Below are positions 15,788 through 24,807 of a DNA stretch of 64,000 bases, one piece after another. The DNA comes from an uncultured Eubacterium sp. (GTDB lineage: Bacteria; Bacillota; Clostridia; Lachnospirales; Lachnospiraceae), in assembly GCA_947385775.1 (NCBI GenBank), contig CANDMI010000004.1, forward strand, positions 1 through 64,000, in the 5' to 3' direction. Each line of letters begins with the position of its first letter. Within the stretch, counting starts at the first letter, position 1. A model generated the notes under the pieces. That model searched no databases, was not told where the DNA came from, and saw nothing but the letters and a program-made list of their open reading frames with translations. A program made the position numbers and the translations under genes.

Positions 15788-16825
15788 ATGGGTTTAGAAG
15801 AATATAAGGGCGTATATATCTACGCACAGCAGGTAGATAATGAATTAAGCAGTATTGCCTTTGAATTGATCGGTAAAGCAAAAGATCTGGCGAAAGACTT
15901 AAACACGGATGTTACAGCTGTTCTTCTTGGTTCGAATGTAATGGGCTTAGCAGACCAGTTGGCGGAGTATGGCGCTGACAAGGTAATCGTTGTGGATGAT
16001 CCAAAGCTTGAGCCATACCGCACAGAGCCGTATGCACAGGCATTGACTTCTGTAATTAACGAATTTAAACCGGAAATCATGTTAGTAGGCGCAACCGCCA
16101 TCGGTAGGGATCTGGGGCCTACCGTATCCGCAAGGGTACAGACCGGGTTAACCGCAGACTGTACACAGCTTGAAATCGGCGATTTCCCATTGAACCCGCA
16201 GGCAGGGCAGGAGCAGAAACACAATCAGCTGCTTATGACCCGTCCGGCGTTTGGCGGAAATACGATCGCTACGATCGCATGCCCGGATAACCGTCCACAG
16301 ATGGCTACGGTTCGCCCAGGCGTTATGCAGAAATTAGAGCCGGTTGCCGGAACAAAGGCAAATGTGATCGAGCATAAAGTTGCATTTGAAGAAAACAACC
16401 GTTTTGTAGAAATCGTAGAAGTGATCAAGCAGGCAAAGAGCGTGGAAAACATTATGGATGCAAAAATCCTTGTTTCCGGCGGCCGTGGCGTTGGCTCTGC
16501 GGAAAACTTCCAGATTTTACAGGATTTGGCGGATGTGCTTGGCGGCATGGTAAGCTGCTCCCGTGCAGTTGTGGAAAATGGCTGGAAGCCAGTTGACTGC
16601 CAGGTAGGCCAGACTGGTAAGACCGTTCGTCCAAACGTATATTTTGCAATCGGTATCTCCGGCGCGATCCAGCACGTAGCTGGTATGGAAGAAGCGGATA
16701 TCATCATTGCGATCAACAAGGATGAAGACGCTCCGATCTTTGATGTAGCGGATTATGGCATCGTAGGCGACTTGAATAAGATCGTTCCGGCTCTTACGGC
16801 AGCATTAAAGGCAGAGCTTGGCTAA
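15788..16825 (+). CDS. etfA: Electron transfer flavoprotein subunit alpha
   Basis: EtfA is the partner of EtfB and holds an FAD that passes electrons to butyryl-CoA dehydrogenase. The 345 residues have the N-terminal alpha/beta domain and the conserved C-terminal FAD domain: VSGGRGVGSAENF, SRAVVENGWKPVDCQVGQTG, VRPNVYFAIGISGAIQHVAG and INKDEDAPIFDVADYGIVGD. No N-terminal rubredoxin or ferredoxin extension is present. It is the last gene of the operon. Four 18-bp repeats and a bidirectional terminator follow. Confidence 0.96.
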   Translation: MGLEEYKGVYIYAQQVDNELSSIAFELIGKAKDLAKDLNTDVTAVLLGSNVMGLADQLAEYGADKVIVVDDPKLEPYRTEPYAQALTSVINEFKPEIMLVGATAIGRDLGPTVSARVQTGLTADCTQLEIGDFPLNPQAGQEQKHNQLLMTRPAFGGNTIATIACPDNRPQMATVRPGVMQKLEPVAGTKANVIEHKVAFEENNRFVEIVEVIKQAKSVENIMDAKILVSGGRGVGSAENFQILQDLADVLGGMVSCSRAVVENGWKPVDCQVGQTGKTVRPNVYFAIGISGAIQHVAGMEEADIIIAINKDEDAPIFDVADYGIVGDLNKIVPALTAALKAELG

Positions 16826-16864
16826 GCCATTACGCAAAGCGCTTAAATAAAGTTAAAATCGAGC

Positions 16865-16936
16865 AGGAAAGGTTTCCACTGTAGGGAAGATTTTCCTTGT
16901 GGGAAAGGTTTCCCCTATGGGGAAGATTTCCTGTGT
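16865..16936 (+). repeat. Four imperfect 18-bp tandem repeats, each a small dyad
   Basis: Units at 16865-16882, 16883-16900, 16901-16918 and 16919-16936 follow the pattern GGGAAAGGTTTCCCCTAT with variation. Each unit has GGAA...TTCC symmetry, so each can fold alone or pair with a neighbour. They lie between the etfA stop and the terminator, in the 3' untranslated part of the butyrate transcript. Confidence 0.8.
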
Positions 16937-22434: not shown

Positions 22435-23544
22435 ATGTCCAGTGTATCAATGAAGAACATCTGCAAAAAGTATCCAAACGGCTTTGAAGCAGTAAAAGAT
22501 TTTAACCTTGAGATTCAGGATCAGGAATTTATCATTTTCGTAGGGCCGTCCGGCTGTGGAAAATCAACGACGCTTCGTATGGTTGCGGGGTTGGAAGAGA
22601 TTTCATCCGGCGATCTGATTATCGATGGAAAGCGTATGAATGACGTAGAGCCAAAAGACCGCGATATCGCGATGGTATTCCAGAACTACGCTTTGTATCC
22701 GCATATGACTGTTTATGATAACATTGCGTTCGGCTTAAAAATGAGAAAAGTTCCGAAGGCTGAAATTGATAAAAAAGTAAAAGAGGCTGCAAGGATCCTT
22801 GACCTTGATCAGTTATTAGACCGTAAGCCAAAGGCTCTTTCCGGTGGTCAGAGACAGCGTGTTGCCATGGGTCGTGCGATCGTGCGTAGTCCAAAGGTAT
22901 TCTTAATGGATGAGCCGTTGTCCAACCTGGATGCGAAGTTAAGGGTTCAGATGAGAACTGAGATTTCCGCGCTGCATCAGAAATTGAAAGCGACGATCAT
23001 CTATGTAACTCATGACCAGACAGAGGCTATGACGCTTGGAACAAGGATCGTTGTATTAAAGGACGGCGTTGTACAGCAGGTGGATTCTCCGCAGAAATTA
23101 TACAACCAGCCGGACAACTTATTCGTAGCGGGCTTTATTGGCTCTCCGCAGATGAACTTTGTAAACGCTACCTGCAAGGTAAGCGGATCAGATGTAACGT
23201 TGAACTTTGATAAGTTCTCCATTGCGCTTCCGCCAGCAAAAGCAAAGAAATTGATCGACGGCGGCTACAATGGCAAGACTGTTATTATGGGTATCCGTCC
23301 GGAAGACCTTGGGGATTCCCAGTATGAGATGGAGCATTACGCAGCGCGGGTAGACGCAAACGTAACTGGTTACGAGTTGCTTGGCTCTGAAGTCATCCTG
23401 TATTATCAAATTGCGGGCGCAAATATGAGCGCAAAAGTAGAATCTTCTACACCGGCGCGTCTGGGCGACCATGTAACGCTTGCGTTGAACCCAGAAAAAA
23501 TTCATGTATTTGACCATGATACAGAGTTGACAATTACGAATTAG
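22435..23544 (+). CDS. Sugar ABC transporter ATP-binding protein, MsmX/UgpC/MalK type
   Basis: The 369-residue ATPase energises import of sugars or glycerol-3-phosphate. It has Walker A GPSGCGKS (residues 37-44), the Q-loop in MVFQNYALYPHMTVYDN, the signature LSGGQRQRVAMGRA, Walker B FLMDEPLSNLD and the switch His in YVTHDQTEAM. A C-terminal TOBE/OB regulatory domain follows from about residue 240, containing MGIRPEDLG. No permease or binding protein gene is adjacent. This matches known orphan ATPases such as MsmX that serve several carbohydrate importers at once. The start has an AGGAGG site. A perfect consensus promoter for a downstream transcript overlaps its stop codon. Confidence 0.92.
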   Translation: MSSVSMKNICKKYPNGFEAVKDFNLEIQDQEFIIFVGPSGCGKSTTLRMVAGLEEISSGDLIIDGKRMNDVEPKDRDIAMVFQNYALYPHMTVYDNIAFGLKMRKVPKAEIDKKVKEAARILDLDQLLDRKPKALSGGQRQRVAMGRAIVRSPKVFLMDEPLSNLDAKLRVQMRTEISALHQKLKATIIYVTHDQTEAMTLGTRIVVLKDGVVQQVDSPQKLYNQPDNLFVAGFIGSPQMNFVNATCKVSGSDVTLNFDKFSIALPPAKAKKLIDGGYNGKTVIMGIRPEDLGDSQYEMEHYAARVDANVTGYELLGSEVILYYQIAGANMSAKVESSTPARLGDHVTLALNPEKIHVFDHDTELTITN

Positions 23545-23555
23545 TAAAATATAAT
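23527..23555 (+). promoter_or_regulatory. Perfect consensus sigma-A promoter
   Basis: TTGACA at 23527-23532, exactly 17 bp, TATAAT at 23550-23555. It overlaps the last codons of the ABC ATPase gene, and transcription would start near 23561. Such a perfect match is typical of strongly expressed stable RNAs. Confidence 0.85.
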
Positions 23556-23560
23556 AGACA

Positions 23561-23718
23561 TGTTCAATATATTATAATTAGTCTCTTCGGAGGTTGATTA
23601 TAAACTGATGAAAATGTAACCTAAGGCAACCAAAGGTACGGAAGTTACATATAAATCAGCAACGAAGAAAGGAAGCATAAAATATCACCAACCCGGTATT
23701 TGCTTCCTTTCTTTTTAT
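23561..23718 (+). ncRNA. Candidate small structured RNA (or leader of the PucR-type gene)
   Basis: About 158 bases between a perfect promoter and a strong terminator, with no convincing open frame. The RNA can fold into one long nested hairpin: TCTTC (23584-23588) with GAAGA (23664-23668), GTTG (23593-23596) with CAAC (23660-23663), CTGAT (23605-23609) with ATCAG (23655-23659), and ATGTAAC (23614-23620) with GTTACAT (23644-23650). The 3' strand of the three outer helices is continuous, and the 5' strand carries the bulges GGAG and ATTATAAA. The 23-base apical loop is purine-rich. I do not recognise an Rfam family. It could be an independent sRNA or a terminator-controlled leader for the PucR-type gene 22 bases beyond the terminator. 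Confidence 0.6.
23667..23718 (+). terminator. Terminator of the candidate RNA
   Basis: GAAAGGAAGCA pairs with TGCTTCCTTTC (11 bp), followed by TTTTTATT. The stem may extend through ATA/TAT pairs near the loop. Confidence 0.8.
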
Positions 23719-23739
23719 TACGAAAGCGAGGGGCCGGGA

Positions 23740-24807
23740 ATGAAAAAGCTGCAAAAAATACTGGACGAAATTATGGAAATCTCACGCATCCCGATGCTTT
23801 TGTACAACGCGAAAGCGGAATGCGTCGCGGCTACTGCAAACGAAGACGCCGTTTCTTTGGACAGTATCCAATCGTTTATTGATTCTGAAATGAATATTCA
23901 GTCTTGTGGGCCTTTTCATTATCTTAAGGTGATGTATTCGGAGGCGCTTTCGTATGTCTTGCTTGTATTTGCGGTTTCACCGGATTCCTTTACGATAGGC
24001 CGGTTGACGGTCTGCCAGCTACAGCATTTGCTGGAGAGTAAGGAGGACGCGGTTACGAAATCCAGCTTTATCCGCAACCTGATATCTGGGAACTTCACTC
24101 CGGCGGAAATGGAGCGGCAGCTAAAAAAACTTCGCCTTTCCCCAGCGTCAGCTTGTTGGTATGCGTTTGTAATAGAAAGCGATGACAAGCTTGAAAATTC
24201 TTATATATACCAAATGGTTTCCCGCGCGTTTGCGGGGTATAAATTAGACTTTTGCTACGAGCTGGATGAAAAACGCCTGCTCTTATTTAAGGACGCTTCG
24301 AATATTCCAGATGCAAATGTATTTGCCCAAACCCTGGTGGATACGCTGCGGGCGGAAGCGATGATACAGACCCATGTCGGCTACAGCACAAAAGCGGAAA
24401 GCTATACCCAGTTTCCTCGCATTTTCCAGGAAGCAAACACCGCGCTGCGCATCCGCCGTACTTTTTTTGCGGAACGCGATACGGCGGCATACGATAAGCT
24501 TGGCATCGGGCGTTTGATCTCAGAGCTTCCGGCGCAGCTTTGCAGGGAATTTTTATTCGAGGTGTTTGGCGATCAGATCCCGGATAATATCGATGAAGAA
24601 ACCCAAAACACGATTCATAAATTTTATGAAAACAACTTAAATATTTCAGAAACCGCCAGGCAGCTTTACCTGCACCGCAATACGCTTGTATACCGCTTAG
24701 AACGTATGGAAAAAATGCTTGGGCTGGATATCCGAAAGTTTGATGATGCGATGACGTTTAAACTGGCGATGATGGTGTTGACGCATTTGCGCGCGATTGA
24801 AAAATAA
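23740..24807 (+). CDS. PucR/CdaR-type transcriptional regulator
   Basis: A 355-residue probable activator. The N-terminal part, about 1-110, resembles a small sensory domain without a clear motif. The middle resembles the GGDEF-like region of PucR proteins. The C-terminal 60 residues match the PucR helix-turn-helix: FYENNLNISETARQLYLHRN followed by TLVYRLERMEKMLGLDIR. Related proteins control purine, sugar-diacid and nitrogen metabolism genes, but nothing here identifies the ligand. The start has a GCGAGGGG site. It lies directly behind the candidate RNA and its terminator, so its expression may depend on read-through. Confidence 0.82.
   Translation: MKKLQKILDEIMEISRIPMLLYNAKAECVAATANEDAVSLDSIQSFIDSEMNIQSCGPFHYLKVMYSEALSYVLLVFAVSPDSFTIGRLTVCQLQHLLESKEDAVTKSSFIRNLISGNFTPAEMERQLKKLRLSPASACWYAFVIESDDKLENSYIYQMVSRAFAGYKLDFCYELDEKRLLLFKDASNIPDANVFAQTLVDTLRAEAMIQTHVGYSTKAESYTQFPRIFQEANTALRIRRTFFAERDTAAYDKLGIGRLISELPAQLCREFLFEVFGDQIPDNIDEETQNTIHKFYENNLNISETARQLYLHRNTLVYRLERMEKMLGLDIRKFDDAMTFKLAMMVLTHLRAIEK

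Follow-up and report, generated by a model that had tools for sequence, protein, structure and literature searches.

A terminator hairpin with a near-fixed loop, probably an undescribed RNA control element, upstream of a PucR-type regulator gene in one genus of Lachnospiraceae

In the window (the whole 64,000-nt stretch of DNA analysed here), a sugar ABC transporter ATPase gene and a PucR/CdaR-type regulator gene lay side by side on the forward strand, separated by a gap of 195 bases between the end of the ATPase stop codon (23544) and the PucR-type start (23740) (Table 1). The ATPase carried ABC ATPase, MalK OB-fold and TOBE domains; ATPases of the MsmX type serve several sugar importers. The source organism belongs to a genus, which we take to be Eubacterium_J in GTDB naming, that takes in Eubacterium plexicaudatum, a species placed under Eubacteriaceae in the NCBI taxonomy. 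Thirteen species of the genus were compared, the window species counted among them. In E. plexicaudatum ASF492 (L020 and L144; G004; record L050), the match to the PucR gene was split into two pieces, residues 2-137 and 130-351, which overlap and lie in different frames, reflecting a frameshift or a sequencing error. Elsewhere in the window, the gap between two convergent genes (ends at 16825 and 16963) held alternating GGGAAAGGTTTCC and GGGAAGATTTTCC-like units at 16863-16934, which fold into a long hairpin.

Table 1. Features at the ATPase-PucR junction, in window coordinates.
Feature	Position	Strand	Basis or remark
MalK/UgpC/MsmX-type sugar ABC transporter ATPase	22435..23544	+	PF00005, PF17912 and PF08402 domain matches
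Exact TTGACA-17-TATAAT promoter	23527..23555	+	12/12 matches; overlaps 3' end of ATPase gene
H1, 14-bp hairpin with UUCG loop	23572..23603	+	Fold; comparison of species
H2, CUGAU/AUCAG stem	23605..23659	+	Fold; enlarged here by an inserted AUGUAAC...GUUACAU hairpin
T, intrinsic terminator hairpin	23664..23714	+	Fold; 13/13 species
AC-only apical loop of T, ACCAACCC	23687..23694	+	Identical in 11/13
PucR/CdaR-type regulator	23740..24807	+	PF13556 (PucR C-terminal HTH), PF17853 (GGDEF-like)

The 158 nt from position 23561 were predicted to fold stably into three hairpins (H1, H2 and T) at -45.4 kcal/mol, a value reached by none of 200 dinucleotide shuffles (z = -6.1). T was made up, in order, of an outer stem, a 3-nt 5' bulge, an inner 6-bp stem, an 8-nt loop and a U-rich tail; it bore out the strong terminator of the original prediction and was missed by a simple terminator scan. 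The four helices that had been proposed to nest in one rod were not the stable fold, and the comparison of species backed separate H1 and H2 hairpins instead. When the rod was enforced (UCUUC/GAAGA, GUUG/CAAC and CUGAU/AUCAG), the full RNA reached -31.2 as against -44.5 kcal/mol (13.3 worse) and an RNA ending at 23680 reached -15.8 as against -21.6 kcal/mol (5.8 worse); by eye, the outer helices of the rod were not retained in congeners. In an RNA ending at 23692, just before T forms, an unconstrained rod-like fold with UCUUCG/CGAAGA was the minimum at -21.8 kcal/mol, ahead by about 0.2 kcal/mol. By this folding model, the rod may be a transient and not a stable fold in this species, and a transient antiterminator may arise from the rod-like fold in this species. 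The rod-like fold spans 23584-23668 and pairs the pyrimidine strand of H1 with the foot of T; it was the minimum only for RNA ending near 23692.

The suggestion made earlier that a bulged GGAG mimics a ribosome-binding site was not supported, since three of its four bases fall on the 3' side of the H1 stem. The earlier remark that no convincing open frame fits held: no plus-strand ORF of at least 40 aa lay inside the RNA. A 60-aa ORF with a TTG start (23700-23882) began in the 3' arm of T and overlapped the PucR gene in a different frame. When the intergenic sequences were scanned for an ORF that has a start and runs across the T loop, one was found in six of the 13 species (L010, L012, L014, L017, L018 and L019) and was absent from seven, this one included; those of L010, L014 and L019 shared the frame ...TNPVxASFLF, dictated by conserved bases. 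A common short coding sequence through T was rejected on these counts, which cover the intergenic sequences only.

T was found between the ATPase and PucR genes in all 13 species, as one strong copy each scoring 54.8 to 80.8 bits. An apparent further species beyond the 13 (L049) had T at 73.7 bits. No second strong copy was found in the genus, the next best match (39.1 bits) being the same place on the other strand. The loop ACCAACCC was replaced by CCCAACCC in L013 and by ACCAGCCC in L018, and the 3' arm GCTTCCTT was kept throughout. In 12 species, five or more of the first eight bases past the stem were T; L017 kept the hairpin with a tail, TTAACGGA, holding two T. T started about 30-221 nt past the ATPase stop in all species, and its stem ended 17-108 nt upstream of the PucR start (28 nt in the window, 17-49 nt in seven of the 13). 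As a control, fourfold-degenerate sites of the ATPase gene were invariant at 10 of 126 positions (sites with a codon family common to all 13), with an identity to the window of 0.48-0.61. Terminator loops are usually free to change, and a near-fixed loop beside ATPase fourfold sites that have mostly changed suggests that something reads the loop. The best hairpin before a T-run downstream of tpiA differed in each of the 13 genomes, with no common stem or loop; this was a single control gene with an automatically chosen hairpin, so that the true terminator may be missed in some genomes, and the candidate in L148 was weak (-10.9 kcal/mol).

A model of T (R1) was searched over 299 genomes of the family and gave 23 matches at E ≤ 0.01 under stricter filters. 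Two of these, with scores of 80.4 and 73.7 bits, were congeners. None of the remaining 21 exceeded 35.2 bits, and by score alone they were generic-terminator-like; a strong match was thus absent from 297 of the 299 genomes, both exceptions being congeners. The ATPase also adjoined the PucR gene in 25 of 28 loci of the family outside this genus (taken from the 30 top-scoring PucR loci among 150 genomes, minus the window, L056, and a congener, L070). T was not found in these 28 loci, where the best score was 24.2 bits, and the 25 junctions carried different hairpins by eye; L057, L073 and L083 were left out of the junction comparison because the adjacent ATPase end was not found. When named genomes were scanned with a T-derived pattern, 17 stretches were returned. 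Both genes stood beside T in 11 (L049 among them), from E. plexicaudatum ASF492 and from uncultured Eubacterium, Eubacteriaceae, Lachnospiraceae and Marvinbryantia. The remaining six (Streptomyces, Hymenobacter, Methylococcaceae, Halobacillus, a Bacillota MAG and Paenibacillus) had neither gene, scored 19.0 or 15.9 bits or nothing, and were therefore taken as chance. The window and 12 congener loci had no match in Rfam 15 at the gathering score; the Rfam/Infernal check suggested with the original prediction yielded no family, the best weak match being SNORA69, whose 24.4 bits fell short of its gathering score of 47. No prior description of T was found in Rfam or in the literature on E. plexicaudatum sRNA and on UgpC and PucR in Lachnospiraceae. 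By these comparisons, T is real as a structured RNA element and, within the genomes sampled, confined to one genus. That it is an ordinary terminator conserved by descent only is very improbable: the other-genus junctions likewise have a hairpin after the ATPase (by eye), as this explanation would have it, but the hairpins after tpiA in these genomes are not related to one another, and most fourfold sites in the adjacent ATPase gene have changed.

In the alignment of T, 92.7% of cells paired, compared with 38.0-57.6% when the partners were slid. Few of 500 shuffles reached the observed number of paired cells (3), of cells changed on both sides (2) or the covariation score (2). Three of 16 pairs were changed on both sides, a count reached by 83 of 500 shuffles, and the observed value for pair types was reached by 42 of 500. 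Alignment A2 misplaces the 5' arms of L018 and L021, so the pair counts for T are lowered. The RNAalifold covariation term was 0.12, effectively nil, because the outer stem hardly varies, sequence being kept along with structure. At one inner pair (columns 23/35), U-G was present in seven, C-G in four and U-A in one of the 13 species, making a DNA dyad less likely. A DNA operator overlapping the terminator, used for example in PucR autoregulation, would fit the adjacent regulator gene and the partial dyad at the tip of T; such an operator is quite unlikely in view of the U-G pairs in the stem and the variable spacing of the two stems. Moreover, no second site with two or fewer mismatches was present in the source genome, and three congeners together had five extra two-mismatch sites against three control hits.

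In the alignment of H1 and H2 (seven sequences), both sides were changed in 4 of 20 pairs (reached by 8 of 500 shuffles; covariation score by 5 of 500), and three of the 14 H1 pairs were of this kind. H1 was present in seven of the 13 species (weakly in L012) and H2 in six. A compact H2 was seen in five congeners (L010, L011, L013, L016 and L019); the inserted hairpin that enlarges H2 here (23614-23650) was absent in these five. A model of H1/H2 (R2) matched seven of the 13 congeneric genomes, L012 (G011) weakly, and no second copy was found in the genus with this model. These seven species form one side of a branch in the ATPase tree (support 72/61). The distribution points to T, within the sampling, as a trait at genus level and to H1/H2 as one at clade level.

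The exact consensus promoter noted originally at the end of the ATPase gene was confirmed, its -35 hexamer doubling as Leu-Thr codons of the ATPase C-terminus ELTITN. Exact consensus sites with a spacing of 16-18 numbered 53 in the 3.98 Mb genome, compared with one for a reversed control pattern; the site is therefore very probably a real promoter, though its -35 overlaps ATPase codons. Five of the 53 exact promoters in the source genome (G000; C2, C57, C110 and C124) share a similar TTGACATTT...CAATGGTTATAAT, which is perhaps a repeated element; two of the five copies stand at the first base of a contig. A good counterpart of the promoter was found in one of 12 congeners (L010, 10/12 matches). 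Promoter-like sites in the remaining congeners matched at 7-9/12, those of 8-9/12 being at the level of shuffles (which, here and for the antiterminator below, preserved base composition only), with the exception of L021 (9/12, shuffle frequency 0.06).

This promoter bears on the main rival reading, a trans-acting sRNA of about 155 nt (about 23562 to 23716) transcribed from the consensus site and using the AC-only T loop as its seed, which we regard as possible. It would account for the promoter here and in L010, for a compact three-hairpin RNA in six of 13 species including this one, and for the both-side changes in H1, and a loop of A and C only, being incapable of G-U wobble, would be apt for a seed. 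However, a promoter of its own was not conserved among the species, as one would look for in an sRNA, and H1/H2 were missing in six of the 13 species that keep T. Counted by position, GGGTTGGT lay 2-14 nt before an ATG 102 times in the 13 genomes (five of these being T itself on the other strand) compared with 71 for a reversed control, a mild excess that may include targets. Of the original structured-RNA interpretation, selection on RNA structure stood; its leader version is favoured by position, and its sRNA version leans on the poorly conserved promoter.

The position of T fits a terminator in the leader of the PucR gene. Across the species compared, T is a hairpin kept in sequence and structure, with its U-tract in 12 of 13 and directly upstream of PucR in all. 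No promoter-like site was found between the T loop and PucR in eight of 13 species, so PucR there needs read-through; sites of 7-9/12 were present between T and PucR in the other five (L013, L014, L015, L018 and L020). In L014, L015 and L020, a -35-like TTGGCT lay within the 3' arm of T, 17 nt from TAAGAT, TAACAT or TATGAT, possibly a weak PucR promoter starting inside the terminator. In some species (e.g., L012 and L014), another hairpin followed the ATPase by eye and T was kept regardless. The need for read-through, the kept U-tract and the persistence of T behind other ATPase hairpins make a leader terminator our best reading, in which a factor would recognise its tip, at a probability of roughly 0.45. 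The feature would then form a 5' leader to the PucR-type gene with T at its end, H1/H2 as a clade-specific portion and the recognition signal carried by the loop and inner stem of T. Transcripts from the consensus promoter (in this species) or from ATPase read-through would mostly stop at T, and a protein or small ligand binding the hairpin tip would alter termination or stability, thereby setting the amount of regulator. We infer termination at T in vivo, control of PucR by T and a factor that binds the T loop.

Antiterminator pairing of the T 5' arm with upstream sequence was within shuffles in all 13 species (z -1.6 to 1.2), and L015 and L017 had scant structure upstream of T. The H1 pyrimidine strand came out as the top upstream partner of the T purine arm in L012, L013 and L016, as in the rod, again in the shuffle range. 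No conserved cis partner for the T loop was found in 8.5-20 kb of flank. With neither an antiterminator nor a cis partner, the tip itself is proposed as the recognised part. The tail of L017, with two T, indicates that termination is not the whole role of T in that species. L017, in which the hairpin lacks a U-tract and directly precedes the PucR ribosome site, would also suit a processing or stability boundary between the cistrons, at which T protects the 3' end of the ATPase mRNA and lowers PucR, its loop being a site for a nuclease or RNA-binding protein. The placement of T after the ATPase stop in every species agrees with such a boundary; it is nevertheless unlikely, since, by eye, a different hairpin already follows the ATPase in several species and the 25 other-genus junctions have other hairpins there. 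Returning to the leader terminator, a more specific form is doubtful. In it, T would be a receptor built into a terminator and specific to the genus: a ligand or dedicated protein would bind the AC-only loop and inner stem of this hairpin of about 50 nt while transcription proceeds, so gating the PucR-type regulator next to a general sugar-importer ATPase, and T would be a new class of minimal RNA switch. More generally, the T hairpin, loop included, is probably a hitherto undescribed RNA control element, and the PucR-type gene is its most likely target. It is a small element, present as one strong copy per genome before a regulator gene and beside an ATPase of the multi-importer type; its size, copy number and position therefore make it a case in which RNA control close to carbohydrate uptake can be tested in gut Clostridia.

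Among known systems, sRNAs of the RsaE/RoxS and RNAIII types in Firmicutes have an unpaired C-rich apical loop. The RNA described here resembles them in its unpaired C-rich loop and, in this species, in its consensus promoter and terminator; it differs in that ACCAACCC is not the complement of AGGAGG and the promoter is not conserved. Leader attenuators of the BglG/LicT and PyrR types are read by RNA-binding antiterminators and combine a terminator before the gene with a conserved hairpin. T is likewise a terminator before a gene, and is set apart from this general description by antiterminator pairing that stays within shuffles. Nearest in logic is the HMP-PP riboswitch (thiS motif), a terminator-embedded aptamer (PMC6478431). 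T has no Rfam match, occurs in one genus beside one PucR-type gene, and is followed by that gene in 13/13 species, not by a thiazole or thiamin gene. The thiS riboswitch has an alternative ON fold with a separate P1 and a pseudoknot; here no pairing of a T arm or loop with upstream sequence was common across species. T was not classed as a thiS/HMP-PP member because the downstream gene differs and no alternative fold with upstream sequence was found. In the thiS report, an abnormally conserved terminator loop was the first of four peculiar features and the first hint of function (PMC6478431), and the loop of T, likewise part of an intrinsic terminator upstream of a gene, is also conserved to an unusual degree.
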